A DNA stretch of 64,000 bases from Daphnia pulex (Eukaryota > Arthropoda > Branchiopoda > Diplostraca > Daphniidae): contig NC_060018.1 of NCBI RefSeq assembly GCF_021134715.1, positions 4,605,501 through 4,669,500 of the forward strand, in the 5' to 3' direction. Below the pieces are notes generated by a model. That model had not been told where the DNA came from, did not search any database, and was given only the letters and a program-made list of their open reading frames with translations. Shown here in pieces: positions 1-61,645 of the stretch. Within the stretch, counting starts at the first letter, position 1, and each line of letters begins with the position of its first letter. The position numbers were made by a program, and so were the translations under genes.

Positions 1-3000
1 GAATCTCATTTGAACTCGATACACGCCGGACAATCAACAGCTCAACAAAGAACACCGTCTCCATCTCTCCGCTGCGTCGACCTGAATGCCTTCAGTTCTT
101 CAATCAAGTCGGATCCGTTTTTAAATACCAATTCCGCCAAACATTCGTTGCCGCACATCTCACTGGGGACGTTCAACATGTCTTCATCGTCGCCGGCTTC
201 TTCGCCTCCGCAGGTCCGGCAGGCCTCTTCCGCCGCTCCGTCGTCCCGCAACGGACTCGTCGGACTCTCCAAAGTCGGCCGTCACCGACCGGTTGTGCGT
301 AGTCAAAGCTCGCGGATCTCACTCTTACGCCAACCGCCGCCCAGCGCGTCCAGTCTCAACAGCGGGACCGACGAAGAACATTTCTCCATGCCCGAAAGGT
401 AAAAACAAAAAAATGGCTCATCTTTTGGCTAATTCATTGAATTCAAATTCATGTGTCATTAATGATCTACCGCACTGCCGCACAGGTACGTGGAGTACCG
501 CGGTAGGAGCTGCAGTCGCTGTTGGTGGTGGATCCCGTTCACCGTCATCACCTCAATCATCGTTGCATCTGCCGTCTTCTGGTTCTGGCAACCTTATGGT
601 CACTATCTAAACACTATTTTTCCTTTTTTCTAATTGAATGTTGCCCAATATTCGCAATTGGCGTGAACGACGTGCCAAAGTGATAACTGGAGCACGCGTA
701 ACCTAATTGTCAGTTTGCCTATAGCCGATCTTTCTTCTGCAACCTATTGCATAAAGAAACGAAGCACTCCAAAATAAGCTAGTTGACTGTCCGCCCAGCA
801 GACTAATGGGATCAGGGGTGTCGTGTCGGCCCCATTCGCTCTGTCGGCTTCTCTCTCTCTCTTGCAAAACTCCAGACTCCGACATTGTCCATACAGTATA
901 TTACAACGGGGCCATTATTTGGCAGTTTGCGATGAAGACGAGAGGCCTTCCGCTCTCGTCACTTGTGATTTTCGTTTGAACCAAAGTCGATAATTCATTA
1001 ACCTATTACTCCCCGTCAAAGTTGCACCCGTTCGACTAGTCGTTGATTTCAATTTATTTGTCGTTAATTTTCATTCCGTTAGAAGCGATATGTATATCCT
1101 ACCCCTCCCCGTTTGTATGTTTTCTCGTCGAGCGTGTTGTTGACAAACTTCGGAACAACGTCTCAATCTAATGGGCAAAACCCGACAAATGTCGCATGTG
1201 TTTTTTCCCCCCTCTCTCTTCAGTTGGCAACCTAGCCCAGTCAAACAATAGAGCACGCACGACCAGCTCTAATTCTGACTATCTATATATACATGTATGA
1301 ATATACTGGACTGCTTAGCCGTTGAATAGGGGGAGGGCAAGAGGATCTTCTTTTTCTTTTTGAAGTCGTTATACTTCTTGTTTAGCGGGGCATCGCTGTT
1401 GATTTATGGCCCACGTCTCGCAGTTTGCGAGGAAGCCTTGCCAAAGCGAGTATAGGTTGGGCCATTAGAACCGTGTCGGTTCCATTGGCATTAGCAAAAG
1501 AAATCGCGACTCGGAAACAAGTCAAATAAAAATCTAGAGCTGAAATATTTATCTCTGATCGTAAAACTTTGTGACTTTTGATATTTTGTTTTGAAAAATA
1601 AAACTGATGCCTTCATGTGACTGAGTGAAACCTTTCTTATTTGTGAAAAATTCAAAACTGCAGGATTGTTTGGCAATTATGAAGATGCGAGCGCCGCATT
1701 GCCGGAAGACCAGCATCAGGGCGAGCTGTGCACGACTCCGGCCTGTGTGAGAGCGGCAGCGCGTCTTCTGGCCCGTCTCGATCCGTCGGTTGATCCCTGT
1801 ACCGATTTCTACCGATTCTCTTGCGGCCGCTTCCTGGAAACGTACAGCGTTCCCGATGACTCTAATCAGCTTTCAACTCTACAAGAAATGCAGGACGAAA
1901 TGCTACTTAATACTCGAAGTCGGTTGATAACCATCCAAACCTTGGATTATTGTCCTTTTTAAAAAATTCACGATCCGCTTTATGATTTGATGATTGCATG
2001 TCTGAATCTTTGTGTGTGTGTGCAGAAGTGTTGGAACAGCCGCACGATGGCGATGCTAACGTCAACGGATCGGTTCGGAAAATCAAAGATTTCTACGCTT
2101 CGTGTATGAGTCCGCGTAAGTCCAACCTCAGCTCGCCTTTCTTCTCTTATCTTTCTTTCAAACAATCAGTTGTCGTTTGACATTCCCGAAAAAGAATTCC
2201 ATTTTCAATCCTTCCTTCTTTTTTGTTCCTCGTCGCTGGTTTGAGGCGAGCGACAAGTCAGTGAAACTGACTTCTTTGAAACTAAGTCGAGTGAAGGAAG
2301 CTGCATGGGTCCCTCCTGGCATTTGCATTTGGTTAAATGATGAATTGTGTGATGTGCATGTTATGTATTATGATGTTGTACTGTTTTGTATTTGTCGTGC
2401 CGGCTGCATGATGGACTCTTTCTTGTTTTCCGACTTTCCGCTGGATGGTCAACATTGCCGGCTGGCTGATGATGACTGATGGCAGATTTGGACGATGCGG
2501 ATTTTGGCGACGTCAGGGACTTGCCACTGTTTGCTTTTCTACAGCCGGGTGAATTAGGCGCTTGGCCTTTGCTGATGCTCGAGCCCGGCGACCGTCCGCA
2601 CGATCATGCGTCACTCGAGCACCTGATCGGGACCCTGGCCGCCCTCCAAGTTCACAGTTTCGTCGACATTTACGTCACGCAAGACGAACGAAACTCGTCC
2701 CAGTACATCCTCCAGGTATAGTATTAGGTATATATTAAAAGTCCCTGTGCGTAAAGAAATTTATGTGCAGGGTCGTCCCACTTTCGTTTTCACTATTTAT
2801 TTTAGTCCTTGTCAAATATAGTGCGACGTACATTCGCACGAATTTTCCGCAAGAGTTTATGAAAAAGTTGTACCCCCACCCTTATGACTCGGTCGGGGGA
2901 TTGCGCAAAAGTTTTTTTTTTTTTTTAATTAAATTTATTCTTCTAAATCTCTTTGTGTTTGAACAGTTTTACAAAGGTGAACCGCTGATGGAGAAAGACT

Positions 3001-6000
3001 GGTATGACGTGAGCAAGAATTCATATCAATATACTTGAGGCCGTTAGGCCGTTCTTGAGGCCGTCAGGCCGTTCTTGAGGCCGTTAGGCCGTTCTTGAGG
3101 CCGTCAGGCCGTTCTTGAGGCCGTTAGGCCGTTCTTGAGGCCTTCAGGCCCGCTATGCCGTCAGGCTAGGTTGGGACCACTCTGCTGTCATATATAGCAA
3201 AGCTGTTGAGAGTTGGGACCGCTTTACTATATATAAGCAAAGCGGTCCTGACAGCACTTTGCTATATATGACAACAGAGTGGTCCTAACCTAGCCTGACG
3301 GCATAGTGGGCCTGACGGCCACAAGAACAGCCTGACGGCCTCAACAACGGCCTGACGGCCAATAAAAAATTTTAGGTAATATACCTACAATTTTAGGTAT
3401 GACGTGAGCAAGAACGAAACGGTGGCCAGACATTCACGCTGCCTCCGCTCCTATCGCAATCTCATGGAGGAGACTATTCTTCTGCTGAGCGGCGGTCGGC
3501 GTGAGCCACTTGACGAACTCGACGATATGCTGGCCTTTGAGGCGCGCTTTGCCAAAGTAACTCTCTATCCTTTCCTTGTTTGTCTAATTCAATTGTTGTC
3601 ATCTATTTTAGTCGCATTCCGACTAGATTTCCAATGTTTGAACTTGATGCCGCGATAATCCCACTTTTGAATAGTTTGTAACTTCAAAGTTTGGAAATAA
3701 AGAGGGATTTGGGTTTTCATTGAAAGGACGAGGCTGCAGTCCGTGTCTCTCTGGCATGACGGATTTGAATATGTACATTCATATCGTGGAATCGATCTTC
3801 TTTTTATCTCGGAGAGTTCGTTGTTTGCGCAACTTCAATTCCCCCTCTTTATTTCCCCTTTTTTCTTACCCTCTCATTTTCCATTCTCATTTTACACCGG
3901 GGTTTATGCAGTCAAAAAGAATAGAATAACAGAGCGAAAACTTTGCAGATAACTAGATGCAGGAGTGTTGTTTTTTCGGTCCTTGCCTTTTTCTGTTCCA
4001 GCCAAATTCTCACCATGATCGTAGTAGTAAACCAAGAGTCCGGAAAATGCGACTCTACGATGTCGTCAGCTGTCTTCTTATTTCATTTCTTTTTTATATC
4101 GCTGTCTTTTGTTTCCCTCTCTCGTTTCCCCTCTTTTATTTGAGAAAGAGAGAGTCAATTTTGGTTTTGGTTTGATTATAGATTTCCAGCAATTTCTGCG
4201 CCGATGGTGACTTCATGTTAGATCCGACGAGCGATTCGAACCGCACCGGCACCAGCAGCGAAGATCTAGAGAACTCCGCCTTTCATCAGGACGTCGTCGT
4301 CGATCACCGCTTGAGCCTCCATGACATGGATGCCCAATTTCCTGCGGTAAATAAGCAAAACAATGTTCAGACGGGGTTTGCCTTTTTTCCCTTATCAGAA
4401 ATCTTTGTTGTTGTATGATCAACTTTTAGAGCGTGTGGTTTCGTTTCGGGTGACAGTTTTGGCCAGACAGTCGAGACTGCTGTCTACCCTGGCTTATTTT
4501 TCACATTTGATTCTTGGTGTCTCTCTCTTTATCTATAGATATGTAAACATAGAGGGAAATTGAATGCTTGATTTCAATTTTCTTTTATCGATCTGCTTTC
4601 GACGTCACCTTGTGAATGTATCCAATCTTTTTTTTTTTTCTGGGCTGGAAATGTCTCAACACGAAATTCTCGATTGAATCACCTTCAATTTTGATGAAAC
4701 TGAATTGAATACTGGAGTTAACTCGGGTAAAAGAAGCGGTTGCGTCCTTGCCAAGTAGGGCGACCTTTTTCGTTGGGCTCGGCTGATTCTTATCTTCATT
4801 CCTGCCTTCTTTATCTCTATTGATTGATTTATTTTCTCGCATATTTTTCTTCCATCCGGTAACTTTGTCATTAATTAGTGCCCGTATAGGCGAACCCAGC
4901 GGCGTCAGCCGTACACGGAACCGACCGTCCTCCTTCGTCGTTAACGACACTATGCAGCATGCACAGTTACAAAGATCCGGCGCCGACGCGTCGCTTCGTG
5001 GCTATCTTTAGAAAACTTGGACAAAACCTGCTTGATGAACTCTTTTGACTTTTTTATTTATTTTTATTTTTTAACAAACACACACACTGCAACGAGCTGG
5101 CTCCATCTCCACCTAATTCTTAAGACCAGTTTTGAGGCTTACGCGATCAGAGAAAATGTCATGCTGCAACAAAATATTCAATGGGCTGTGTATCAGAGAG
5201 GAGTTTATGGGACGAATTTATATGTCTCGTCGCAATCCGCTTCCCGTCTGGCAGACTAGGCGAAAGAAGAGCTGTGCGTGTTATGTCCAGGCGAAACTTA
5301 CTGATTGGATTCGTGAAAAACAGATTAACTGGACAGCAGCCGTGGAGACACTTCTCCGAGCCACCGGATTAAACGAGCAGGATCGGTCGGCTCTCCTGTT
5401 GTCCGACATGCCAGTCAGTCTGCAGTGTCGTGATTTTCTACCCGAGCTAAGCACGCTTCTCAGCACTACACCGACCAGGTAGCAGCGTAGTTGTTAATAG
5501 TTTCTCAATACCCAACCGTGTAACTTTCACAATTCTTTTCTTTTTATTTGGTTTCTATCTTTTTTTGTAATTTCACAATTTAAAAGGACCGTAACCAATT
5601 ATTTGATATGGCGATTCGTCTTCAAATCGATGCCTCTTATTACCACCCGTTTCCAGAAAATGTGGACCAACTTTAAACAAAGCGTGCCCAATTTGGGTGA
5701 AGAGCGCATTTATCTCACGAGGTTCGTATCTTTTTTCTTTCTTTTTTTAAAAATTCCCAAATGAGCTCTCAGCCAAATGCGGAAGTCGATGATGATCGTC
5801 CCTAATGTGTCTGGCTGGCTTGACTTATAGGTGGAAGCAGTGCGTCGCGCTGGTGAACGAAGGTTTCGGATTAGTAGCCGCACATCTTTACGTAACCAAA
5901 ATGGCCTCAAATTGGACGAATACCTGGGTATTTATTCATTTGGAAAAGACAAAAAAAATGTGTGTTGTTTGGTATTCGATCTTCAAAGTGCTTGCTAAAC

Positions 6001-8002
6001 AAACTGTAGATATTGCAGCTGATCGACGAACTGAAAGAAGCTTTCGGCGCAAGCATCGCCCGCCAAAAGTGGATCGAAGAGGAGATGACGCTGCGTCTGC
6101 TGGAGAAAGTAAACTAGTTTCAAATTTATTATTGACTGCTTTTTTGCCATTTTGTAATATCCCACGAGATAGCGCTGGTAATGAGAAGGCAGTGAGCGTG
6201 ATGATGAATCTTTTCCGGTCCCCGTGTTTTTTCTAGTTGGAGGCAATGGGCTCCAAGATTGGCTATCCTAACAAAATTCTCAACTTGACTCAATTGGATC
6301 TCGATTATCACGAGGTATGGGCATATTCCTGGAAAATTATTATGGCAGCTAGGAAACAGATTGATTGACTTTTGTTTCATATTTTTACTTTAAACTGGAA
6401 AATCGCCCTTTTTTCTTTAGCTGCACATTGACAATGGACACATTTTCTTCAACGTTATGCGCATAAGGCGTCACGAAGTCTGGCGCGAAATTCAAAAAGT
6501 CTTCCAGCCACCGCCCGAAGAGAAGTACGTATTGTATAACAATAGCCAAGCCTTCATTTTGTGTCTGACTGCTTATGCTGCTAAAATGTGCTTGATTAAA
6601 TTTCCAGGGAATGGCTAGTTCAACCACTGGTCGTCAACGCCTTTCACAATCCGTCGACCAACGAGATCAGTTAATAATGATTCCCCCCTCCTTTTTTGAA
6701 ATAATATTCGCACGCACACATTTCTCGTCTCATTTCTCAAATCCTTTTTCTCTTGTCTCGTTTTCGTCGAATTAGTTTTCCCGTTAGGAATCCTTCGCGA
6801 GCCTTTCTTCAACCTAGACCTACCAAGGTAAATTTCATCACGATTCGCAGCAGCAACTAATATCCTGTTAATGAAGTAATAATGAGCTTTATTCACTTGT
6901 CAATTCCAAGATATATGACATACGGCAATCTGGGCGTCGTGATCGGCCATGAAATTGTTCACGGATTCGACGTCAACGGTATGTCCATCAAATCTCTCTC
7001 TCTCTCTGTCGCAGTTTCTGACTGATTGAAATCTGATTGAATTTCTGTCTTGTTCGTTGCTTTTAATGAAAAGGACGGAGATACGATCGACATGGCAACA
7101 TGACTCAATGGTGGAGCGAGTCCTTGATGCGCGAGTTCAGTCAGCGGGCTGACTGTTTCATCCAGCAGTATGCCGCCTTCACGATTGACCACATCGATAA
7201 ACCGGTTAGTGTCCTCCCTATACAGTATACGCATTCTGATCAATCGCTCCTACTCTTCTTTGTTGTCTGAAATTGCGCCTGCGATCTTGATATACGTCGA
7301 TGAGTTTGCGCAAGTCGGGAAGCGGCGGGTGGAAGTGACGGAATAGTTTCGTTTATTTAGGAGGGAAGGGCTTCCGGCCCGAGTTATTTGATTATCTTGA
7401 AAGCATCCCAACTAATTTAACTTTTGATTCCAAGCGAGATTTTGAGTGTCGTGAAATGCATGCTTGGCGTTTGACTGGATTTCGTGAGCGTCATTAAGGA
7501 AACGAGGCTTTTTATGACGAAAAGTAGCACATCACATTATATATGAATAAAATTCCGGTAATTTCTGTCGTCAAAGATTGACGGAAACAGAACATTAGGC
7601 GAAAACGTTTGCGACAGCGGCGGACTTGCCCACGCCTGGACCGCTTATAAATCAAATTCAAAGTCTGGAGGTGAAGAGATCCGCAGCCCAGAATATCGAC
7701 TGCCGGGTGTCAACTACACCGACGATCAGCTTTTTTTCATCACTTACGGACAGGTTTCTACGGCGACTTTCTTTTTCTCACTACTTTGTATTTGATACCG
7801 TCTTTTGTGTCTGGATTTACAATAGATCTGGTGCGAGGTGCTGAATGGTGACGGCTACGAGAAGTACACAAAAGAGGCTCACAGTCCGGGGAAATATCGT
7901 GCAAACGGCGTCCTTCAGAACAGTCCTACTTTCTCTCAAGTTTTCAATTGTCCACTCGACAGCCCGATGAATCCAGCCAACAAGTGCCAACTCTGGAGCT
8001 AA
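1..8002 (+). CDS. M13 zinc metallopeptidase, neprilysin/endothelin-converting-enzyme type (5' partial, ~20 exons)
   Basis: Type II membrane endopeptidase that cleaves small extracellular peptides. Modelled exons: 1-398, 486-598, 1664-1918, 2026-2115, 2486-2715, 2967-3001, 3397-3556, 4182-4346, 5291-5478, 5587-5721, 5831-5927, 6019-6108, 6237-6314, 6421-6524, 6608-6669, 6776-6827, 6911-6978, 7074-7204, 7577-7753, 7826-8002; all phases agree and give about 934 codons. The frame is open to base 1, so the start is probably upstream. Order: Ser-rich cytosolic tail, one hydrophobic signal anchor (about 520-590), Cys-rich start of the ectodomain (DPCTDFYRFSCG), NAF near 6640, zinc site HEIVH at 6948-6962, third zinc ligand in GENVCD at 7601-7615, HSPG with the catalytic His in the last exon, and a C-terminal CQLWS close to the family's CxxW ending. 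Catalytic residues are intact. It is longer than typical neprilysin (about 750 aa) because of the N-terminal tail. The weakest splice is the donor after 1918. Confidence 0.9.
599..1663 (+). other. Intron 2 of the M13 peptidase gene
   Basis: Non-coding; bounded by GT at 599 and CAG at 1661-1663. Nothing recognisable inside. Confidence 0.7.
3034..3148. repeat. 20-bp tandem repeat, about 5.5 units
   Basis: Five full 20-bp units beginning CTTGAGGCCGT start at 3034, 3054, 3074, 3094 and 3114, with a partial unit from 3134. They alternate TTAGG and TCAGG, implying a 40-bp higher-order unit. Related units occur in inverted orientation at about 3305-3360. Confidence 0.9.
3148..3357. repeat. Long imperfect inverted repeat inside the insertion
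   Basis: The stretch with GCCGTCAGGCTAGGTT and GGACCACTCTG near 3155-3185 returns as its reverse complement near 3278-3302. A smaller hairpin sits at the centre, with arms GGACCGCTTT near 3218 and AAAGCGGTCC near 3238. The folded RNA would bring the two ends of the insertion together. Confidence 0.8.
3557..4181 (+). other. Intron of the M13 peptidase gene
   Basis: Pyrimidine-rich non-coding sequence between the exons ending at 3556 and starting at 4182. No other feature seen. Confidence 0.7.
4347..5290 (+). other. Intron of the M13 peptidase gene
   Basis: Non-coding, between exons 4182-4346 and 5291-5478, ending in a good CAG acceptor. No other feature seen. Confidence 0.7.
7205..7576 (+). 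other. Intron of the M13 peptidase gene
   Basis: Non-coding, between the exon following the HExxH exon and the exon with the GENxxD zinc ligand. Nothing recognisable. Confidence 0.65.
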
Positions 8003-22447: not shown

Positions 22448-22570
22448 GACATTGACTGTGTGCGACCTCTATATTTCAGCTGCTTCTCAGCAAACAAAAG
22501 AACAACAAAAACGGGGGATAGGTGAGAGATGGCGCTCAGGTGGGCGGACCTTTCCCTTAGACACATCAGA
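22448..22570 (+). repeat. Left inverted terminal repeat of the DIRS element
   Basis: Reverse complement of 24996-25118, nearly perfect by eye. Ends 29 bases before the gag start codon, so it probably carries the element's promoter. Confidence 0.85.
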
Positions 22571-22599
22571 TCTCTTTTCGCTCTCGTTGTGCAAACATC

Positions 22600-24924
22600 A
22601 TGTCGGATCCCGAACAGTCAAGCGATTCTAGCTCAAATTCTAGTAGTTCAGGCTCCGACTCATCAAGAAGAGGAGGCGTAAAGAAATTTCGTCTCTCAAG
22701 TGAAAAGTCAGCTAGTTTGGCCGACTGGGTCGTATCGGGTTTAGATGACACTCGAGCGAAAAGTGCTAGAGAGGCCTTTAGACCCAAACTAAAGAAGAAC
22801 GCCGACCTGCTGATCAACCCCAATCTAGATGATGCATTCTACATCCGGCTGAAGGCAGTTAAGTCATCTTCGGCAGCCAAGGTCAACATCGACCCAATCG
22901 AGAAAATCTACAGGAACCAAACCTTCAAGATCCTTGACTTAGTCAAGCCCATCATGTTTCTAGCAAGTCGGCTCAAGAAAAAGAAGAAATCCCGAGCCGA
23001 CGCCAAGGCGGTCAAAACAGCTCTGAAGCTCTGGGCGGTGGTGTACCACGACATCACGAACGCGCGACGCCGCAACATTCTGGCCCAAATCTACCCGCAG
23101 AATATTGGACTGCTAGACGACAAAGCTGTCCTGCCAACGGGTGGAGAACACCTCTTCGGTCCGAAGTTCACCCAGGCCCTGGTCGAGCAAGTGAAAACTC
23201 TGAACGCTCTCGAAAACGCGGGAGCCCCTCGCGCGCCCGGATCTAAAGGTGGTCATGATCAACGCCAATCGAATCGCGATTTCAGCCACCCCCCTTCATC
23301 TTCAGGCGGTCGCTATTCCAATTTTAAAGGATCTCGGTATGTCCAATCTAGTCTCCTTTCCTTTTATGGGTTTTTTCTCTTGGACGCATAGCGCGTTTTT
23401 ATGTTAAATTGTCAAGACCGGCTTTCGATCGGTGGAATTTGTCAACGGTGGCCCCATATCTACAACTAAATTCTATTTGTGATCCCGTCCAATTATTTGG
23501 GAGCGGGTTGGCTCACCAAGTTGAACTTGATTGACTCATACTTGTCGGTCTCAAATTTTTTCCTATTTTTGAAGGCCTTTTGAAATTCCTTCAGTTTAAA
23601 TGGGGGCGTTTTCTTCGAATTCGTGCCCCCCCTCCTTCGTTTTAAACTCAATGTGATGGGCGTTCACCAGACTAGTAAGGGGAGTGGTAACCTTCCTGCG
23701 GAAGAACGACCTTCGCCTCGAACTTTATTGGGATGAGATTTTAATCTTGGCGCACGGGTATAGCAGTGCCCCAGCACACTTCCGTGCTCTTCGGATCCCC
23801 TTAGATTCCAAACCGGATGATCATCTGATCAGGTCAAGAGAGCAATTTACGCTTTCGGCACGTTTACAAGAGGCTCGTAGAAGTCCTTCTTGGGTGGTTT
23901 CAAAGGCAGATTTTACATCTGGCCGTCCGCTCATTTTTCCCGACGACGGATTTGTCCAGGGCGTCGGATGCATCCTTTTTAAAGAAGGGAGGGGGGCAGT
24001 ATGAAACGAATAAGGACTAGGAAACTAGCCGAGATTGCCCTAGCAACACCACTGACCTCTCGTCCCTGATAGAGCTAGCAACGGAAATTCCGCTCCTTCT
24101 CTTCCCATCCAAGTAGGCTGATCTCCCCGTTGGGGGAGGGTCATCCATTGACAGGAACGAATCCATCTGTTTTATCGCTCGGTGGTTCTCCGGAGTTGTC
24201 TGGAAGAACGAACCTTTCCGAAGGAAATTATCGAGCTCATACTGGGAGCAATTCGATCGAATACGCACCCTGCATACCAGTCCGCTGAGGTCGCTTGGAG
24301 CAGTTGGTGTAAGCAACGGAACCACAACTCTCTGTTGTCTGGCGTCAAGGAGGTATTAGCTTTTCCTTGTTAATTTTCGTTCCAGCAAGAGCTGCAGCAC
24401 GGTGGGAAGGAACCCTCCGACAACTATTCGTATGAAAGAGTATTGACGCCTTTTTTAGACGAAATGCCGATTTGGTGGCGCATCCATGTTACACAGTCCA
24501 GCAGGGCTCCCACGAGCTCCAATTTTCAGGCGTTGGTAACTGTCGACCATCAGGGGGTCTTATCTTATATCTTATTATATCTGATTATATCTTGCTTTAA
24601 AGACACAGTCAATGTCGAACGAATTTACCGACAATTTGTAAATTGTTCGAGCGAGCTTTAGCTCGCGATGAGCAATTTGGATTGTTGGGGGAATGGAGTG
24701 AAGACATTGACTGTCTTCTAACCACCCATCCCGCCCACTTCATTCCCGTTATCATTATGTTATTTAACTTGAATTAGGTGCAGCATCCGATTATTGACGG
24801 CCCACTAATTCCTCTTTCCTTCTATCTTTTTGCTAGATACAACAATGATAGCCGCAGATCCAATTTCGACCGTGGCTCACCCAATCCCGCCAATAAAGGC
24901 GATCAGAACAACAACAACAAATAG
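22600..24924 (+). CDS. DIRS gag-like protein, probably spliced (22600-23336 + 24837-24924)
   Basis: The ORF starting at ATG 22600 opens with an acidic Ser-rich tract, followed by a basic, helix-prone core and a PTGGEHLFGPKF block resembling the conserved region of metazoan DIRS ORF1 proteins. The unspliced ORF ends at 23391. A donor at 23337 (GTATGT) and a strong acceptor after a pyrimidine tract at 24836 join in phase to a short Asn/Arg/Gly-rich tail (YNNDSRRSNFDRG...) ending at 24924, for about 274 aa. Product is presumed to bind nucleic acid and coat the element's RNA. The splice is inferred from sequence only; the unspliced form is the alternative. Confidence 0.65.
23570..24004 (+). pseudogene. 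DIRS reverse transcriptase fragment, decayed
   Basis: The frame reading AFTRLVRGVVTFLRKNDLRL followed by YWDEILILAH matches the palm region around the catalytic YxDD box of DIRS reverse transcriptases. The box is altered to YWDE, the upstream part (FLQFKWGRFL near 23590) needs frameshifts, and the rest of the enzyme and the RNase H domain are absent or scrambled. Not functional. Confidence 0.65.
24140..24373 (+). pseudogene. DIRS tyrosine recombinase N-terminal fragment, decayed
   Basis: Encodes SNTHPAYQSAEVAWSSWCKQ followed by a VKEVLAF block, like the SAM-like core-binding domain at the start of DIRS tyrosine recombinases. The catalytic half with R-H-R-Y is missing, so it cannot act in cis. 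Confidence 0.5.
24604..24714. repeat. Internal complementary region (ICR) of the DIRS element
   Basis: 24604-24640 is complementary to the left extremity (22427-22456) and about 24632-24714 is complementary to the right extremity (25110-25190). The junction reads through AAATTGT in complement, as expected of a copied circle junction. Confidence 0.88.
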
Positions 24925-24995
24925 GCCATTTGAACCATGGATCACCTTACACATTTTCCGTTAAGCCAGATCCACAGTTTGTTTTTGCTTCCAAT

Positions 24996-25118
24996 TCTGA
25001 TGTGTCTAAGGGAAAGGTCCGCCCACCTGAGCGCCATCTCTCACCTATCCCCCGTTTTTGTTGTTCTTTTGTTTGCTGAGAAGCAGCTGAAATATAGAGG
25101 TCGCACACAGTCAATGTC
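24996..25118 (-). repeat. Right inverted terminal repeat of the DIRS element
   Basis: Inverted copy of 22448-22570. The element continues about 70 bp further to 25190 with right-end-specific sequence. Confidence 0.85.
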
Positions 25119-25190
25119 TTCACTCCATTCCCCCAACAATCCAAATTGCTCATCGCGAGCTAAAGCTCGCTCGAACAATTTACAAATTGT

Positions 25191-49824: not shown

Positions 49825-50225
49825 GATTTGATATTTATTTTGATATTGGTTTTTGTAGACCCATCCCCAGCAACGTAACCTGCAGAAAGAAAAAGGCCGG
49901 TTTCTATGACCTTGACGCTCGAAGGTCACGGAGATCATTACGTAAAACGTGTCATGCAGTGGTAGAGGTTGGGTGAGAAACGAGAATGACACGTGTTGCT
50001 TCATTATCAAAAAGGTACAATAGCCGCAAGTGTAAGCTATTTGGTATTCATTTTGATATTGGTTATTGTAGACCCATCCCCGGCAAAGTCACCTGCAGAA
50101 AGAAAGGCCAGTTTGCATTTCAATCGAAGGTCATGGATATCATTACGTAAAAGGTGTCAGGCATTGGTGTAGAGGTTGGGTGAGAACGGGACGTTTTGCT
50201 TCATTATCAAAAAGGTAAAATAGCC
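49825..50225 (+). repeat. Tandem duplication upstream of the first Tyr-rich gene
   Basis: Two diverged units of about 190 bp (about 49825-50030 and 50045-50225) each read TTTTGATATTGG, GTAGACCCATCCCC, CACCTGCAG-like, ATCATTACGTAAAA, AGAGGTTGGGTGAGAA and CTTCATTATCAAAAAGGTA in the same order. Likely promoter-proximal; mirrored in the right arm. Confidence 0.75.
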
Positions 50226-50258
50226 ATTAGGCTTAAGAGGAGGGGTGAGAAAAAATTG

Positions 50259-50294
50259 TATAAAAGGCGAGAGAAAAGTTGACAGGGATCAGTC
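50259..50294 (+). promoter_or_regulatory. TATA box and initiator of a Tyr-rich gene
   Basis: TATAAAAG at 50259-50266 and an arthropod-type initiator TCAGTC at 50289-50294, 32 bp apart from TATA start to the predicted +1 A. The start codon (ATG at 50355) follows. Mirrored copy at 61610-61645 on the minus strand. Confidence 0.7.
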
Positions 50295-50354
50295 GGGTGA
50301 GCATCTCCGACACGGTAACAACTCCATATTTCGTCGTAATATCAGTTCGCAATC

Positions 50355-51178
50355 ATGGGTAAATGTTCATTTTTATTTCGAGTCGTAAATCTATTCTATC
50401 TTGTTATTAGTTGTTGATACGACTAGTTACCTTCGAAAAATAATTTCCTATTGTTTATTGCATAGTTAATTATGGCATTGTGTTGCTGTTGGGTGTTGTA
50501 TCGTTGATGTCGACCACGAGAGAAAATCTTTCAAAAGGAAAGAGAAAAGGCAACAGAAGTCCATCGAGTGAGCATCTCCGACCCGGCAACAACTGCATTC
50601 TTCGTCGTATTACCAGGTCGCAATCACGGGTAAAAAATCTGTATTTCTACATGGAATTTTGTATCAATTTCCATTTTTTCTATTTGATAATATGTCCGTT
50701 AATGTTGAATATTTAATATTGTCTAGTTAACTATGCCGTCATGCTGCTATTGGTTGTTGTATCGTCGATGTCTGGGTCGACCACTGGTGTACCGACGTCT
50801 CCTGGATAAGGCGGATACCAAACCGAAACGCCACCACCTTATTACTCAACAACATACGCAACGACCAGATACTACACCGAGGTTGCACTGTTGGGTTTAC
50901 AGTTAAATCAAAACGGATCGAGATTATTACACCACAACTTGTGCTGCTCCTCGAGCTACACTACCAAAGCGCTAGAGTACTACACCGAGGCACCTACTGA
51001 GACTACGCAACTACGTATGCTGCCCCAACCTACGACACCGAGGCTCCAGCTTATTACATTACCAAAGCTGTCGAATTCTACACTGGATCGCCCAAGTACG
51101 ACAGAAATCACCAACACGGCAGCCCCGAAGTTTCGAATAAACTTCGTTTCAAACAGTATAACGGCAAAGAGTGAAGGT
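50355..51178 (+). pseudogene. Decayed tandem Tyr-rich secreted-protein genes (copies 1 and 2)
   Basis: Copy 1: exon ATG G at 50355-50358, then an exon from 50466 encoding a signal peptide (NYGIVLLLGVVSLMS). This runs straight into a second copy of the leader region (50560-50635), where the corresponding ATG is ACG. Copy 2: signal-peptide exon from 50728 (NYAVMLLLVVVSSMSG), then GVPTSPG and a TAA where the third copy has TAT, followed by frameshifted YYT repeats (TPPPYYSTTYATTRYYTE...). The mature protein would be rich in YYTT/YYTEAP repeats, as in secreted structural arthropod proteins. No domain or precise function can be assigned. Broken as assembled. Confidence 0.7.
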
Positions 51179-52335
51179 GAGTTCTCTATTATTGTAATTT
51201 TGTGCAACATGTACTAATGACTTGTTTTCCTTCCTTGTCTGTCTATCGAACAAGACAAATTCGACTGCAATCGCGTCGAATTCAATAGCAAAGATAACAC
51301 ATTCGTACGTGTACACCGCGCCGTTAAACTTGACATTGTCGGTCGGCAAGCCGCACTTGACGATGGCCGTACCATCACCTACGACAAGTGCTTTATTGTC
51401 ACAGGTAAACAGTTTATGCCAAACGAAATTTGTCTTTAAAAGTCTCAATGATTACACCTTTTGAATGTTGAATAACTTTGATAATCTTCCTGCTCGATAG
51501 TGTCTTAAGAGCCTATTTAAACTGCTAACAATTTATTTCTGTGAATTAGTTCTACGAATAGAATTAGTTCTACGAATTCCTCTAAAAATGGCCTTTATTT
51601 TCTTGTTAGGTGTTAAACGAAAATCTTTTCCAATCCCTGAGCGGTGCCCTTAAAGATGCCCACGAGCACGTAGCGCTGTTCCGCAACATCGATGGCGGTA
51701 ACATAGGTCGAGTTCTCCGTTCTCCTAAATATTTGAGCCAATGGACAACCGAGAAGGGGAAAGTGGAAAGTGTTAATGTGTTGCCCAAAGCCAATGTTGA
51801 GGGTGCAATTTTGGAAGATTACAAGGTCGCATTGACCTTGAACAATTGTCAAAAGGTAAACAGTTATTTCTGTACATGTTTTGGCGATGTTAATTAAAAT
51901 CTAAAAATTATTTCACCAGATTTAAACTGACCATGTCGTCGCTGCATGTCGGTTGGGACGCAAACACGGATTTGTCTGTTGCTTTTGGTTTGGAAATAGA
52001 GGAGAGGAGATTTTGGTGGTTATCGAGTCAATACCGAGCTTGAAGCACGATCGAACGTTTGGTTGGTAAGAATCCTTGAACATTTTATTTCATATTAATT
52101 GTACTATTGTGACTACAACTTGACCAACATTGACTGCTCTGATGTTGTTGTTAGATAGTATATGAAGTTCTTGTTAAATTAGATTCTAATTATTGGGTTC
52201 GGACTTTTAGGCTGGAGATGTTACGTTCTTTTGTGATATCAAATTGGGTCGCTGTTGTGTGGAACATTATCACCATGCTGTTGTATCAGGGCGATTAGCT
52301 GGAGAGAACAATACTGGCAAAGAAACATGGATGAA
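51130..52335 (+). pseudogene. AIFM1-like flavoprotein gene fragment, intron-containing
   Basis: Blocks matching apoptosis-inducing factor in order: KLRFKQYNGKE (about 51135-51175, then TGA where the family has Arg), LDDGRTITYDKCFIVTG (about 51355-51405), an exon 51610-51855 with LRSPKYLSQWTTEKG and VNVLPKANVEG, a TDHVVAA remnant near 51930, and [14 protein letters not shown] with [17 protein letters not shown] near 52212-52315. GT/AG-bounded gaps between the blocks show a DNA-level, not retro-, copy. The FAD-binding N-terminus and C-terminus are missing, and stops and frameshifts are present. It lies directly inside the Tyr-rich tandem array. Confidence 0.72.
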
Positions 52336-53260
52336 AAACTGCAGTGCACTGTTACCAAGTGCATTCTTCGTCGTATTATCAGTACGCAATCGGGTAAATA
52401 TTCTGTTTCACGGAGCTTGTATAAATTATTTGTTTTTTATCTGTTTGTGTAACATATTGAATATTAATGTTCAAATTATTTACCGCATAGTTGATTGTGA
52501 TGTCGTGATGTTACCGTTTGCCGTATCGTGGAAGGCTGGGTCGATCACTGGTGTACCGATGTCTCCTGGGTATGGCGGATACCTAAGCACCACGCCGCCA
52601 CCTTACTACACAACGACAACATTCGCAAGAACCGGTTACTACACCGAGGCACACAATTACTACACCACCAAGGCTCCAGAGTATTACACCGCAGCTGATG
52701 CTGCCCCGAGTTACATCATCAAACGTACTACACCGAGGCTCCAACTTATTACACCACCAAAGCGGCTGAATACTACACCGAGCCGCCCAAGTACTACACC
52801 AACAAGGCTCCAGAGTATTACACCACAACTTGTGCTTCCCCGAGCCGCTACACCGAAGCCCCGAAGTATTACTCTGCCCTAAGCTACACAACTACAACTG
52901 AGGCGACCAAGTACTACGCAGCCCCAAATTACTACACAGCGGCTGCTCCTTCGTACTACGTTGAATTGGAATACTACACCTAGGCTTCAGTTTACTACAC
53001 CACAACCTACGCTACACCTAGATACTACACCGAGGCCCTTATGTACTACACTACCAAGGCACCTGAGTATTATAACACTACTTACGCTGCTCCGACCAAC
53101 TACACCGAAGCTCCGAAGTATTACTCTATCCCGAGTTACAACACCACTAAGGCACCTGAATATTACACCACACCTTCCGCTTCTCCAACTTACTACAGGG
53201 ACGTTCCTAAATATTATAACTATGTTCAGATTTGTCGGTCATATCTTAATAGTTACTAGT
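52336..53260 (+). pseudogene. Decayed Tyr-rich secreted-protein gene (copy 3)
   Basis: A leader like those of copies 1 and 2 (CATTCTTCGTCGTATTA...) but with the ATG lost at 52389-52392, a degraded signal-peptide exon at 52492, then [22 protein letters not shown] and about 15 YYT-type repeats. A frameshift near 52725 and a TAG at 52981 break the frame; downstream sequence still encodes [10 protein letters not shown]-type units to about 53258. Repeat units ([16 protein letters not shown]) suggest a secreted or extracellular-matrix protein. Confidence 0.7.
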
Positions 53261-53812
53261 CACTGGGAATTGTTGAACTTTAATAGGGAAATCAATTTTT
53301 TTTTAACCTGGGTGATCATTGTGTACGACTTCTCTTGCCACCTAAAAGCCCTAAGACATTGCGACGTTTTCTTGTATTTTTTGGATCTTTCCTATTTCGC
53401 ATGTTGGAGGTGACCTATTGCTCTAATCGCTCTGTATTCCGACATATTCTAGTGTTTGAAAAAACTTCATTTACAGGGCAAGTAACGAAAGAGACATACT
53501 GTGGTGTTTACTAAAAATTGTTGATGTTACCAGCTCTGTTTTTAACATTAATTGGTGTAACAAATGAGTTGCAGATAGTGTATGGTTTATCACATAAGTT
53601 TATTTGAAGGGTCTGGAGTTGATCAGTCTATTGCCTATAACTTATGTAAAACTTTAAAGTTGTAAAAAATATACAAATCTGAACTAAACATTTTTTTATT
53701 ATATAACTTATAAGACACAGCAAACAAAAACATTAAAAGGAATTGCTTTATTGTCCCACCTCCACCCACAATTCCACCACATTTTACAATCACATACATA
53801 CATACACCTAAG

Positions 53813-54058
53813 TTAACCCGTTGGCTGCCACGCCATACAACCCGTAGGTTGCTCTCTACTTACTCTACGCGCCACGTCTGAAGGATCCGTGACCAAAGTG
53901 GGACTTGCCATTGCTGACAAGTCCGGGCTGACACGGTGACAGGAGAATCCATCACCGCATCGACAAGGGGGAACTTGGTGCATTGCCAAACAGGCGCCTT
54001 TCGGCGCGGCCCATGCTAAGGAGCGGGGAGAACAAAGGCGTGGCAGACAACGGGTTAA
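53813..54058. mobile_element. piggyBac-type MITE (left arm copy)
   Basis: Flanked by TTAA at 53813-53816 and 54055-54058. The 238-bp body begins CCCGTTGGCTGCCACGCC and ends GGCGTGGCAGACAACGGG, an imperfect terminal inverted repeat starting CCC. TTAA target duplication with CCC...GGG ends is the piggyBac hallmark. No transposase. Confidence 0.8.
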
Positions 54059-54490
54059 CTAACACAAACACAAACATATTACCAACAACAAATGATGATC
54101 CGCGCTGACACTTTGGAGATACCGGCGACGTTATGGTGTCCATCTTCTCGAAATTTCCTCTGCATTACCTGAATAAAGAGAAATTCAATTCTTAATTACT
54201 GACAGGCCAATAAAAGTTACATAAGAAACAATAATCAGGTTTTTTAGCTCAAAGATTTAAATATGCAATTTTTTAAAGTTTAAATCAAGCTTGCAATGTT
54301 GAGAACTGTTAACAGAACAAAGCTCACTTGCTAGTCTTTAAAAAAAAATTCCGGAAGTATACCGGAAGTAACCACAGCGCCTCAACCATTGAGCTGTCGT
54401 CAAAATAAACCACATATTCGTAATCCCCATGAAATTTGGGGTCGATTAGGTGTGATTTAAACGAAATCCAAAATTTGGCCAAAATCGAGA

Positions 54491-54518
54491 ATTTTCCTGA
54501 ACTATAGTTCAGGAAAAT
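54491..54518. repeat. Perfect 28-bp palindrome within a foldback region (left arm)
   Basis: Centre CTATAG flanked by TTCCTGAA and TTCAGGAA. It sits at the middle of a broader imperfect palindrome in which CCGGAAGTA and CACATATTCGT/ACGAATATGTG recur on both sides (about 54345-54660). Mirror copy at 57386-57413. Confidence 0.7.
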
Positions 54519-55819
54519 TTTCGAAACCGGAAGTACGAATACGTAAAAAACATAACATGAACTTTACCACAAATTTGACGAGGATCACGAATATGTGGTT
54601 CTTTCGTACGTCAGATGAATATTTACTAAACTACAGACTGAAATGAGTAAACCGGAAGTAGAAATAAAAAATCAAATATCGAAAACCTAACAAGTGAGCT
54701 TTGTTGGGGGAATAGTTATCGTTAGTTATCACTAAATATTTTAACAAAATAACTGCCAATAAATGTTTAAAAAGATGTGCAAAGTAATGAAACTGACTGT
54801 TTTGACAGCTGCACATTTTCAAAAAGCCATCTAGCGTTAGAAAAAAGAAACTTCCAAGTAAAACTTTGTTTGCGCGCAAGAAGGGCCTGATTTTGGAATT
54901 ATTACACAGACACAGAGTTTTACGCAACTATATTATTAGTAGATAATCTACGAAAGTAAGTCAATTGTCGGGTACCTGGGCATAATCCCGTGGTGAGTAA
55001 CTGTAGGTGTGTATCAGCAAAGGGTAGCGACCACTGAAGTGTTCCAACTCGTCGGTGAAGTAAGACACTCGTCGGTGAAGTTGTAGCAGCAAAAGCAGTG
55101 AAGCTAGATGAGTGTACGACGGGAAGATAAGGATGGAGCAGAACGTTGCTGGATGTCCCTCTTCCTTCATGGACTAAGGTCAGCATTGGCTTAAGGATCT
55201 ATTACATGCTCTGTAAAAAAATGTATTGCATTAATGAATTGAAAATATAACAGTTAATAAAGCATTTCAATCTTTACCTATACTAAGAAGCACACTGAGA
55301 TTTTCATGTTAAAAACCGCAAAAATGGAATCACAGCAACCAACAGCCTTACTCCTTAGGTTGAGGTAAATTTCCTGATGCTAATGAAAGTGTCATGAAGT
55401 ATTGCAGTAGCGTGGTGATAGGTTATATTGATGCTTACCTTTATCATATGGGTGAATGGTGCTGAATTGATTATGGCATTTGATGTGGTGTGGTTGGTGT
55501 TGTAGCAGTAATGGGGAAATACCTTGTCTCCACACATTTGTATTCCACGATATGTGAGCTTCACACATGAGTTTTAGGCTTTTACAACATGATGGGTCTA
55601 TTGGAGGGAAAGTGACTGAGCGCTAAGTCAGCTTTTTGGAATGACTGACAGTATGCATCTAAAATTTGAAGAAATAAGTTAGTACAGCATAAAAATAAGG
55701 AAATTAGGTCAAGATAAACCTACATATGATACGAAGTTCAATTTGGTATATGAAATCACAGGAATATAAGTATTAATTAGCATCTAATTGTTTCACCCAT
55801 TTTGCCTTGTTTCACGATG
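54512..55819 (-). repeat. Dispersed repeat, copy B
   Basis: Inverted relative to copies A (47797-49105) and C (56085-57392). Forms the inner part of the left arm. Carries a local duplication of ACTCGTCGGTGAAGT near 55045-55080 absent from copy C. Confidence 0.75.
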
Positions 55820-56084: not shown

Positions 56085-57392
56085 ACATCGTGAAACGAGG
56101 CAAAATGGGCGAAACAATTGGATGCTAGACCCTAATTAATACTTATATTCGTGTGATTTCATATACCAAATTGAACTTCGTATCATATGTAGGTTTATCT
56201 TGACCTAATTTCCTTATTTTTATACTGTACCAACTTATTTCTTCAAATTTTAGATGCATAAACTGTCAGTCATTCCAAAAAGTTGACTTAGCGCTCAGTC
56301 ACTTAATTCCCTCCAACAGACCCATCATGTTGTCAAAAGCCTGAATCTCATGTGTGAAGCACACATATCGTGGAATACAAATGTGTGGAGACAAGGTATT
56401 TCCCCATTACTGCTACCACACCAACCACACCACATCAAATGCCTTACTAAATTCAGCACCATTCATGATAAAGGTAAGCATCAATATAACCTATCACTAC
56501 GCTACTGCAATACTTCATGACACTTTCTTTAGCATCAGGAAACTTACCTCAACCTAAGGAGTAAGGCTGTTGGTTGCTGTGATTTCCATTTTTGCGGTTT
56601 TTTATCATGAAAATCTTCAGTGTGCTTCTAAGTATAGGTAAAGATTGAAATGCTTTATTAACTGTTATATTTTCATTTCATTAATGCAATACATTTTTTT
56701 ACAGAGCACATACTAGATCCTTAAGCCAATGCTGACCTTTGTCCATGAAGGAAGAGGGACATCCAGCAACGTTCTGCTCCATCCTCATCTTCCAAACGTA
56801 CGCTCATCTAGCTTCACTGCTTTTGCTGCTACAACTTGTCTTACTTCACCGACGAGTTGGAACACTTCCGTGGTCGCTACCCTTTGCTGTTACACACCTG
56901 CAGTTACTTACCTCGGGATTATGGGCAGGTACCGGACAATTGACTTATTTTCTTAGGTTATCTACCAATAGTCTAGTTGCGTTAAACTCTGTGTCTGTGT
57001 AATAATTCCAAAATCAGGCCCTTTTTGCGCGCAAACAAAGTTTTACTTGGACGTTTCTTATTTCTAACGCTAGATGGCTTTTTGAAAATGTGCAGCTGTC
57101 AAAACAGTCAGTTTCATTACTTTGCACATCTTTTTAAACATTTATTGGCAGTTATTTTGTTGAAGAATTTAGTGATAACTAACGATAACTATTCCCCCAA
57201 CAAAGCTCACTTGTTAGGTTTTCGATATTTGATTTTTTATTTCTACTTCCGGTTTACTCATTTCAGTCTGTAGTTTAGTAAATATTCATCTGACGTACGA
57301 AAGAACCACATATTCGTGATCCTCGTCAAATTTGTGGTAAAGTTCATGTTATGTTTTTTACGTATTCGTACTTCCGGTTTCGAAAATTTTCC
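56085..57392 (+). repeat. Dispersed repeat, copy C
   Basis: Direct-orientation relative of copy A and inverted relative of copy B. Forms the inner part of the right arm. Confidence 0.75.
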
Positions 57393-57845
57393 TGAACTAT
57401 AGTTCAGGAAAATTCTCGATTTTGGCCAAATTTTGGATTTCGTTTAAATCACACCTAATCGACCCCAAATTTCATGGGGATCACGAATATGTGGTTTATT
57501 TTGACGACAGCTCAATGGTTGAGGCGCTGTGGTTACTTCCGGTATACTTCCGGAATTTTTTTTTAAAGACTAGCAAGTGAGCTTTGTTCTGTTAACAGTT
57601 CTCAACATTGCAAGCTTGATTTAAACTTTAAAAAATTGCATATTTAAATCTTTGAGCTAAAAAACCTGATTATTGTTTCTTATGTAACTTTTATTGGCCT
57701 GTCAGTAATTAAGAATTGAATTTCTCTTTATTCAGGTAATGCAGAGGAAATTTCGAGAAGATGGACACCATAACGTCGCCGGTATCTCCAAAGTGTCAGC
57801 GCGGATCATCATTTGTTGTTGGTAATATGTTTGTGTTTGTGTTAG

Positions 57846-58091
57846 TTAACCCGTTGTCTGCCACGCCTTTGTTCTCCCCGCTCCTTAGCATGGGCCGCGC
57901 CGAAAGGCGCCTGTTTGGCAATGCACCAAGTTCCCCCTTGTCGATGCGGTGATGGATTCTCCTGTCACCGTGTCAGCCCGGACTTGTCAGCAATGGCAAG
58001 TCCCACTTTGGTCACGGATCCTTCAGACGTGGCGCGTAGAGTAAGTAGAGAGCAACCTACGGGTTGTATGGCGTGGCAGCCAACGGGTTAA
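57846..58091. mobile_element. piggyBac-type MITE (right arm copy)
   Basis: Mirror copy of 53813-54058 with the same TTAA flanks. It was carried by duplication of the arm, not by independent insertion, since position and flanks match. Confidence 0.8.
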
Positions 58092-58643
58092 CTTAGGTGT
58101 ATATATGTATGTGATTGTAAAATGTGGTGGAATTGTGGGTGGAGGTGGGACAATAAAGCAATTCCTTTTAATGTTTTTGTTTGCTGTGTCTTATAAGTTA
58201 TATAATAAAAAAATGTTTAGTTCAGATTTGTATATTTTTTACAACTTTAAAGTTTTACATAAGTTATAGGCAATAGACTGATCAACTCCAGACCCTTCAA
58301 ATAAACTTATGTGATAAACCATACACTATCTGCAACTCATTTGTTACACCAATTAATGTTAAAAACAGAGCTGGTAACATCAACAATTTTTAGTAAACAC
58401 CACAGTATGTCTCTTTCGTTACTTGCCCTGTAAATGAAGTTTTTTCAAACACTAGAATATGTCGGAATACAGAGCGATTAGAGCAATAGGTCACCTCCAA
58501 CATGCGAAATAGGAAAGATCCAAAAAATACAAGAAAACGTCGCAATGTCTTAGGGCTTTTAGGTGGCAAGAGAAGTCGTACACAATGATCACCCAGGTTA
58601 AAAAAAAATTGATTTCCCTATTAAAGTTCAACAATTCCCAGTG

Positions 58644-59568
58644 ACTAGTAACTATTAAGATATGACCGACAAATCTGAACATAGTTATAATATTTAGGAA
58701 CGTCCCTGTAGTAAGTTGGAGAAGCGGAAGGTGTGGTGTAATATTCAGGTGCCTTAGTGGTGTTGTAACTCGGGATAGAGTAATACTTCGGAGCTTCGGT
58801 GTAGTTGGTCGGAGCAGCGTAAGTAGTGTTATAATACTCAGGTGCCTTGGTAGTGTAGTACATAAGGGCCTCGGTGTAGTATCTAGGTGTAGCGTAGGTT
58901 GTGGTGTAGTAAACTGAAGCCTAGGTGTAGTATTCCAATTCAACGTAGTACGAAGGAGCAGCCGCTGTGTAGTAATTTGGGGCTGCGTAGTACTTGGTCG
59001 CCTCAGTTGTAGTTGTGTAGCTTAGGGCAGAGTAATACTTCGGGGCTTCGGTGTAGCGGCTCGGGGAAGCACAAGTTGTGGTGTAATACTCTGGAGCCTT
59101 GTTGGTGTAGTACTTGGGCGGCTCGGTGTAGTATTCAGCCGCTTTGGTGGTGTAATAAGTTGGAGCCTCGGTGTAGTACGTTTGATGATGTAACTCGGGG
59201 CAGCATCAGCTGCGGTGTAATACTCTGGAGCCTTGGTGGTGTAGTAATTGTGTGCCTCGGTGTAGTAACCGGTTCTTGCGAATGTTGTCGTTGTGTAGTA
59301 AGGTGGCGGCGTGGTGCTTAGGTATCCGCCATACCCAGGAGACATCGGTACACCAGTGATCGACCCAGCCTTCCACGATACGGCAAACGGTAACATCACG
59401 ACATCACAATCAACTATGCGGTAAATAATTTGAACATTAATATTCAATATGTTACACAAACAGATAAAAAACAAATAATTTATACAAGCTCCGTGAAACA
59501 GAATATTTACCCGATTGCGTACTGATAATACGACGAAGAATGCACTTGGTAACAGTGCACTGCAGTTT
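58644..59568 (-). pseudogene. Tyr-rich gene copy 3 (right arm mirror)
   Basis: Mirror of 52336-53260 with the same lost start, frameshift and stop, so the lesions predate the duplication or have been homogenised. Confidence 0.7.
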
Positions 59569-60774
59569 TTCATCCATGTTTCTTTGCCAGTATTGTTCTC
59601 TCCAGCTAATCGCCCTGATACAACAGCATGGTGATAATGTTCCACACAACAGCGACCCAATTTGATATCACAAAAGAACGTAACATCTCCAGCCTAAAAG
59701 TCCGAACCCAATAATTAGAATCTAATTTAACAAGAACTTCATATACTATCTAACAACAACATCAGAGCAGTCAATGTTGGTCAAGTTGTAGTCACAATAG
59801 TACAATTAATATGAAATAAAATGTTCAAGGATTCTTACCAACCAAACGTTCGATCGTGCTTCAAGCTCGGTATTGACTCGATAACCACCAAAATCTCCTC
59901 TCCTCTATTTCCAAACCAAAAGCAACAGACAAATCCGTGTTTGCGTCCCAACCGACATGCAGCGACGACATGGTCAGTTTAAATCTGGTGAAATAATTTT
60001 TAGATTTTAATTAACATCGCCAAAACATGTACAGAAATAACTGTTTACCTTTTGACAATTGTTCAAGGTCAATGCGACCTTGTAATCTTCCAAAATTGCA
60101 CCCTCAACATTGGCTTTGGGCAACACATTAACACTTTCCACTTTCCCCTTCTCGGTTGTCCATTGGCTCAAATATTTAGGAGAACGGAGAACTCGACCTA
60201 TGTTACCGCCATCGATGTTGCGGAACAGCGCTACGTGCTCGTGGGCATCTTTAAGGGCACCGCTCAGGGATTGGAAAAGATTTTCGTTTAACACCTAACA
60301 AGAAAATAAAGGCCATTTTTAGAGGAATTCGTAGAACTAATTCTATTCGTAGAACTAATTCACAGAAATAAATTGTTAGCAGTTTAAATAGGCTCTTAAG
60401 ACACTATCGAGCAGGAAGATTATCAAAGTTATTCAACATTCAAAAGGTGTAATCATTGAGACTTTTAAAGACAAATTTCGTTTGGCATAAACTGTTTACC
60501 TGTGACAATAAAGCACTTGTCGTAGGTGATGGTACGGCCATCGTCAAGTGCGGCTTGCCGACCGACAATGTCAAGTTTAACGGCGCGGTGTACACGTACG
60601 AATGTGTTATCTTTGCTATTGAATTCGACGCGATTGCAGTCGAATTTGTCTTGTTCGATAGACAGACAAGGAAGGAAAACAAGTCATTAGTACAAGTTGC
60701 ACAAAATTACAATAATAGAGAACTCACCTTCACTCTTTGCCGTTATACTGTTTGAAACGAAGTTTATTCGAAAC
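59569..60774 (-). pseudogene. AIFM1-like fragment (right arm mirror)
   Basis: Mirror of 51130-52335, including the frame encoding LRSPKYLSQWTTEKG at 60007-60294 and [17 protein letters not shown] near 59600. Confidence 0.72.
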
Positions 60775-61549: not shown

Positions 61550-61609
61550 GATTGCGAACTGATATTACGACGAAATATGGAGTTGTTACCGTGTCGGAGA
61601 TGCTCACTC

Positions 61610-61645
61610 GACTGATCCCTGTCAACTTTTCTCTCGCCTTTTATA
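61610..61645 (-). promoter_or_regulatory. TATA box and initiator (right arm mirror)
   Basis: CTTTTATA at 61638-61645 and GACTGA at 61610-61615 read as TATAAAAG and TCAGTC on the minus strand. Confidence 0.65.

Follow-up and report, generated by a model that had tools for sequence, protein, structure and literature searches.

In a 64,000-nucleotide stretch of the Daphnia pulex genome (contig NC_060018.1, positions 4,605,501 to 4,669,500; this whole stretch is called the window below), a coding exon of an M13 membrane peptidase gene of the neprilysin/endothelin-converting enzyme (ECE) type is interrupted by 376 bp of DNA lying between two copies of an exact 19-bp direct repeat, GGTATGACGTGAGCAAGAA. 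As judged from the DNA, the insertion is a real and well-formed candidate for a neointron, a case that we regard as strong but unproven. The explanation we favor, with a probability of roughly one half, is that it represents a recently gained spliceosomal intron, formed when a staggered break in the exon was repaired with foldback DNA as filler. Related pieces of DNA occur elsewhere in the genome and bear directly on this explanation. Coordinates of the features are collected in Table 1.

An interrupted peptidase exon

The host gene is intact. A gene model read by hand contains 19 introns, all GT-AG, and no internal stop once positions 3002-3396 are removed. Its product matches both the M13_N and the M13 domains of Pfam and, among solved structures, neprilysin and endothelin-converting enzyme. 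Its best match, a Daphnia carinata protein (P0001), aligns with it gap-free at 90% identity over 856 amino acids and is continuous across the junction as EKDWYDVS (KDW|YDVS). Read without splicing, the exon continues as ...DWYDVSKNSYQYT* and meets a stop after five whole insert codons, in line with the immediate stop expected in a preliminary description of this DNA. Paralogous peptidase exons that could serve as empty-site controls were not found, the three matches at expectation values (E) up to 10 being pieces of the gene itself.

The 19-bp duplication is exact, as that description had it, and cannot be extended by a single base on either side. Exact direct repeats of at least 16 bp at a spacing of 60-600 bp, counted for neighbouring occurrences only, form ten runs in the window; nine of these fall within a repeat cluster at 49.8-61.9 kb, and the GGTATGACGTGAGCAAGAA pair is the sole run outside it. 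The flanks of the insert reach a local alignment score of 19.0, a value attained by none of 500 mononucleotide shuffles (maximum 13.5).

Excision of 3002-3396 restores the frame exactly, in phase 2, with the codon split as TG|G. The to-the-base restoration predicted earlier is thus confirmed, together with the origin proposed for each splice site: the donor GT (3002-3003) lies in the first repeat copy, and the acceptor AG forms at the junction, its A being the last base of the insert and its G the first base of the second copy. We compared GT-AG pairs whose donor lies at 2977-3395, whose acceptor lies no further than 3449 and whose intron has 50 nt or more. Three of them keep the downstream frame open; 3002/3396 alone costs nothing, the others losing a net four and three residues. 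Scored with a leave-one-out matrix of the 18 remaining introns of the gene, the donor reaches 4.4 bits (rank 13 of 19) and the acceptor 0.5 bits (rank 15 of 19), values that suggest usable, not strong, splice sites.

Table 1. Features of the interrupted gene and its insert (positions in the window), and related loci elsewhere in the genome.
Feature	Position	Strand	Remarks
Host gene, M13 (neprilysin/ECE-type) membrane peptidase	178..8002	+	20 exons, 867 amino acids
Interrupted exon, first part	2967..3001	+	ends GACTG
First 19-bp copy	3001..3019	+	contains donor GT 3002-3003
Inferred neointron	3002..3396	+	395 nt, GTATGA...TTTTAG, phase 2
Inserted DNA	3020..3395	+	376 bp
AT-rich left end	3020..3033	+	14% GC
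Tandem array of 20-bp unit CTTGAGGCCGTYAGGCCGTT	3034..3150	+	5.8 copies
Left arm, longest inverted repeat of foldback core	3099..3202	+	104 nt, 92% complementary to 3257-3360
Right arm of foldback core	3257..3360	+	pairs with 3099-3202
AT-rich right end	3361..3395	+	14% GC; holds one TTTTAGGTA copy
Second 19-bp copy	3396..3414	+	first G finishes acceptor AG (3395-3396)
Interrupted exon, second part	3397..3556	+	from gene model and D. carinata alignment
Related locus L009	C12:4204183		
Related locus L010	C3:2017041		
Related locus L011	C8:10539695		
Related locus L012	C3:5072379		
Related locus L013	C12:4071116		diverged
Related locus L014	C7:7740367		
Related locus L015	C6:5506892		
Gene beside L010 (L010 1726-1995 with L092 1952-2314)	C3:2017725-2020514		
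Gene beside L013 (L013 with L093)	C12:4071580-4072556		

Anatomy and predicted fold of the insert

The insert is composite, with short AT-rich ends enclosing a GC-rich core (3034-3360, 56% GC). The core opens with the tandem array of 20-bp units and contains the long inverted arms, and shorter inverted pairs with the right side start from 3035. All of these are internal: the longest arms begin 79 bp inside the left end and 35 bp inside the right end, and the outermost shorter pair lies 15 bp inside the left end and 51 bp inside the right, so that the insert lacks the terminal inverted repeats of foldback elements or miniature inverted-repeat transposable elements (MITEs). The predicted fold has a minimum free energy of -268.7 kcal/mol (z -28; none of 100 shuffles as low), which bears out the hairpin reported earlier, and leaves 133 of the 395 intron nucleotides outside the widest pair (3099-3360). 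If the core were removed, the first repeat copy and the AT-rich ends would together make a 68-nt intron of 76% AT. The motif CAATA stands on both sides of the core (3027-3031 and 3360-3364), a 5-bp match well within chance. One copy of TTTTAGGTA lies at 3370-3378, and a second, at 3391-3399, spans the border of insert and target at the right junction. A 30-mer over the right end of the insert has no other occurrence in the genome at up to three mismatches.

Tetris and Tm1 are foldback transposons with long inverted repeats and internal repetition. The same architecture is given for Galileo in the available part of its description. The insert shares both traits with these elements and differs from them in that its long arms stop short of its ends, its copies are few and no transposase was found.

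Related DNA elsewhere in the genome

A DNA search of 133,188,837 bases in 13 contigs, in which match counts are lower bounds, found related pieces at no fewer than seven other loci, six of which were recovered by a 28-mer pattern search. Three more single matches (C3:4281951, C5:2014463 and C5:2598856) came from a looser 19-mer pattern, as against three for a reversed control pattern. Internal repeats are held in common among the related loci, their ends hardly so. Among the matches found, the core of the window insert recurs only in L009 (77% over 302 bp); L010, L011 and L014 have a different core in common, and a 24-mer near the end of L011 occurs exactly only in L011 and L010. A further stretch, L087 (C7:7537437), lacks the 20-bp unit; it contains a 17-bp unit instead, followed by sequence like that of L010 (71% over 149 bp). 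One three-mismatch match, L088 (C10:3908981), was rejected as a relative, having no alignment longer than 30 bp to the other loci. The window insert and L011 lack a common 3' end such as marks non-long-terminal-repeat elements or short interspersed nuclear elements.

No relatives of the insert were found in viral and prokaryotic collections, where 16 and 193 pattern stretches, respectively, yielded no orthologous DNA, and an exact 24-mer of the 20-bp unit is absent from IMG/VR and GTDB contigs. A match to a Sodalis praecaptivus plasmid (78% over 118 query bases) was ascribed to similar tandem repeats; phage and E. coli collections lay outside these searches. Rfam models, run on window positions 2500-3900 and on five relatives (all except L013 and L015), gave 15 matches, none at gathering score; 13 of the 15 were microRNA models and none was a self-cleaving ribozyme.

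At both L010 and L013 the 20-bp unit lies upstream of a gene that has a Cys-rich motif and could not be assigned to a family. These two genes are related to each other in two exons (53% over 86 and 45% over 53 amino acids by tblastx); neither has a Pfam match above cut-off, and the four relatives found for them are unnamed or hypothetical. They were considered as the autonomous partner of the repeated DNA and were not accepted as transposase genes, because matching far-end repeats are lacking within 8.2 kb at L010 and 7.3 kb at L013.

The flanking repeats differ greatly among the eight loci tested, the window included. They are exact at the window (19/19) and at L011 (16/16) and imperfect at L012, whose score of 15.5 exceeds the highest shuffle score of 13.5. 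At L014 a borderline 14-bp repeat, with a single mismatch, lies in AT-rich sequence and is equalled by 3 of 500 shuffles; the shuffles preserve base composition only, which flatters the AT-rich L012 and L014. No flanking repeat was detected at L009, L010, L013 and L015. The result for L010 rests on an uncertain boundary, because its similarity to L087 continues past the end first assumed, and a wider look likewise gave no repeat. Across the eight loci there is thus neither a constant length of target duplication nor a set of conserved termini, as a foldback element or MITE would have, and the right end of the window insert is unique. The genome search proposed earlier, for other copies with 15-20-bp direct repeats at intron boundaries, has an exact case in L011 and an imperfect one in L012; four loci have no repeat.

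Several of these loci lie close to splice sites. The repeat of L011 straddles the border between an exon and its donor, where the frame reads RVNE|VQLH. That of L012 straddles the acceptor border between an intron and an exon, where the frame reads LQGLPG|PYVKWF, in a gene that is, to judge by a motif, probably inosine-triphosphatase-like; at L015 the unit starts about 25 bp past a likely donor. At L011 (963-1317; C8:10539662-10540016) the 16-bp duplication copies the exon end together with its donor, and use of the first donor would put the whole insert inside the intron. A preference for splice junctions may be at work here. It is a post hoc impression drawn from L011, L012 and L015 without a background comparison, and selection would also purge insertions from the middle of exons.

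The closest relative of the window insert, L009 (1117-1484; C12:4204116-4204483), is a foldback insertion within a coding exon of a TULP4-like gene. A related protein from a 1,804-base contig, P0010, matches 64% of the query at 89% identity and reads YYQEGWLAAGNNRSVVGVTFT unbroken; in the L009 gene about 365 bp separate YYQEGWLAA from KNRSVVG and interrupt the reading. Four in-frame GT-AG pairs are present and none is exact, the nearest costing one residue net and altering four beside it; to judge by its sequence, this copy may be a broken or segregating allele. The closest relative has thus also entered a coding exon, with other ends and without a long duplication. For these same reasons L009 speaks more strongly than any other result against a clean introner family, and it is mainly on account of them that we prefer break repair with foldback filler to a transposase acting on fixed ends.

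Origin of the insertion

We envisage that the exon would have been broken at GGTATGACGTGAGCAAGAA with overhangs of about 19 nt, that extra DNA was captured as filler during repair, and that fill-in of the overhangs doubled the 19 bp. The filler would itself be composite: its AT-rich ends resemble the usual neointrons of D. pulex, and its core is a GC-rich foldback made up of 20-bp units. The first target copy would supply the donor (G|GTATGA), and the last A of the insert together with the first G of the second copy would supply the acceptor (TTTTA+G). The intron could then have been spliced from the start, the predicted hairpin leaving about 130 nt of it outside. In this scheme we infer splicing, recency, the staggered break as cause and the order of events. 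A unique right end, and flanking repeats that vary or are absent among the eight loci, are what break repair, rather than the action of one transposase, would be expected to leave.

Several observations weigh against this explanation. By the gene's own matrix, a donor-like site at 3397 scores 5.9 (4.4 for the inferred donor), and acceptor-like sites ending at 3169 (4.4) and 3277 (6.0), both within the hairpin arms, exceed the inferred acceptor (0.5). At 0.51 the GC content of the inferred neointron is the highest of the gene's 19 introns. The 19-bp repeat and the 395-nt length are greater than the 4-12 bp and the mean of 78 bp printed for D. pulex neointrons (PMC4202315, in the available text). 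Mobility is suggested by the related DNA at seven or more other loci, one of which has an exact 16-bp repeat at its flanks. Weak alignments also enter the AT-rich ends, by about 6 bp on the left (L015) and about 13 bp on the right (L011, inverted); because of these two, the ends of the insert are not wholly private.

The main alternative, a tentative one, is that the insert is an introner-like element, that is, a member of a low-copy, non-autonomous Daphnia foldback family that is moved by its own machinery, makes target duplications of about 15-20 bp and has here turned into an intron. The presence of related DNA at eight or more loci, window included, accords with it, as do the long repeats at the exon|donor border of L011 and, imperfectly, at the intron|exon acceptor border of L012; introners that carry their acceptor and draw the donor from the duplication are, moreover, described (PMC9860276, in the text available). 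It is countered by the unique right end and the long arms that stop short of the insert ends, by the four of eight loci without a flanking repeat, the closest relative among them, by the single seamless intron among the loci resolved, by the duplications of 3-9 bp that the same text states for certain earlier introner families, and by the failure to identify a transposase-bearing partner near L010 or L013. The narrower proposition, that this is an undescribed low-copy Daphnia foldback DNA that makes 15-20-bp duplications at GGTA-like or splice-junction sequences and whose integration tends to yield or spare introns, seems doubtful to us. If it were true, foldback DNA would act like an introner in an animal for which break repair is the explanation given for the neointrons described so far. 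The preliminary description had raised an undescribed introner family, and the loci do not reveal one: common ends are scant, there is one other long exact repeat, and none of the three loci that could be placed against exons by reading frame (L009, L011 and L012) is a second seamless intron.

An unlikely course of events is one in two steps, in which a 68-nt AT-rich neointron arose first, with the 19-bp duplication, and the foldback core entered it later. The contrast between the 14%-GC ends and the 56%-GC core, the 68 nt of 76% AT that remain without the core, and the L011 and L012 copies at the edges of existing introns would fit such a history; the CAATA on either side of the core would fit as well, though within chance. 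Against it, the core borders have no significant repeat. It is very improbable that the insertion is unspliced and disrupts the gene, for instance as a segregating null allele caught in the assembly, since GT and AG stand exactly where frame and sequence are restored and the gene keeps all 20 exons intact, at 90% identity to D. carinata, even if L009 shows that such DNA can stand in a coding exon without an exact splice solution and the acceptor is weak with better-scoring sites nearby.

Comparison with published intron gains

Returning to break repair with foldback filler, the closest published counterparts are the neointrons of D. pulex itself (2014, PMC4202315). According to the available text of that study, 33 exon-end repeats of 4-12 bp were read as marks of staggered breaks; the neointrons average 77.7 bp and 78% AT; significant internal repeats occur in 55 of 90; and a database match was found for 4 of 90, the DNA source of most new introns being unknown. 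The window case resembles these in its insertion into a coding exon, GT-AG borders whose excision, as read from the sequence, would restore the coding sequence, a direct repeat that brings an exon end back on the far side of the insertion, an internal repeat (here TTTTAGGTA) and AT-rich ends. It differs in the length of its repeat (19 bp against 4-12 bp, which supports the earlier view that such a duplication is unusual) and of its intron (395 nt against a mean of 78), in a GC-rich hairpin core with genomic relatives, and in that splicing was demonstrated by complementary DNA there and is inferred here. At 395 nt and 49% AT it is neither short nor AT-rich, and becomes so, close to the printed averages, only when the core is left out. 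The available text of PMC4202315 nowhere uses the words hairpin, inverted repeat or secondary structure, and no hairpin-bearing Daphnia neointron appeared in the titles and abstract openings of the matches listed by a full-text literature search, from which supplementary files and subscription journals were excluded.

Introners that take their donor from the target duplication and carry the acceptor have been described, with duplications of 3-9 bp in some earlier families (Gozashti et al. 2022, PMC9860276). The window insert likewise recruits its donor from the duplication and largely carries its acceptor, to which it contributes the A. Unlike introners, it has no family of sequence-similar introns shown for it, with at least seven related loci and no seamless intron among the three placed; its duplication is 19 bp against 3-9 bp, and its ends are not in common. 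Among animals and land plants, the available text of PMC9860276 reports introners in two groups, both animals, with copepods named, and in that text the word Daphnia occurs once, in the reference list.

A review puts at 43% the share of gained Daphnia introns that have repeats and sets out how splice sites can come from a target that has been duplicated (Yenerall and Zhou 2012, PMC3443670, available text). As in the intron gain at AGGT by transposon insertion or tandem duplication treated there, a GT-containing duplicated target supplies splice sites here; the target is instead TGGT, the insert gives the A of the acceptor, and the inserted DNA does not duplicate the exon. The window case joins these published splice logics with a duplication longer than either printed figure (4-12 and 3-9 bp). 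It reveals both the integration mark and the nature of the inserted DNA, and relatives of the insert can be traced. It offers a concrete locus, beyond the printed range of repeat lengths, for separating break-repair from element-driven intron gain.

Other features of the window

The window contains two other repeat structures. At 49974-55067 and 56837-61930 lies an inverted repeat with arms of 5,094 nt, reported as 100% complementary and 1.77 kb apart, that includes short repeats such as TACTACACC; it may be a recent palindromic duplication or a matter of assembly. At 22448-25118, perfectly inverted repeats of 123 nt surround reading frames, and a second inverted pair of 84 nt is found at 24631-24714 and 25107-25190. 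The reading frames resemble those of a DIRS-type retroelement.

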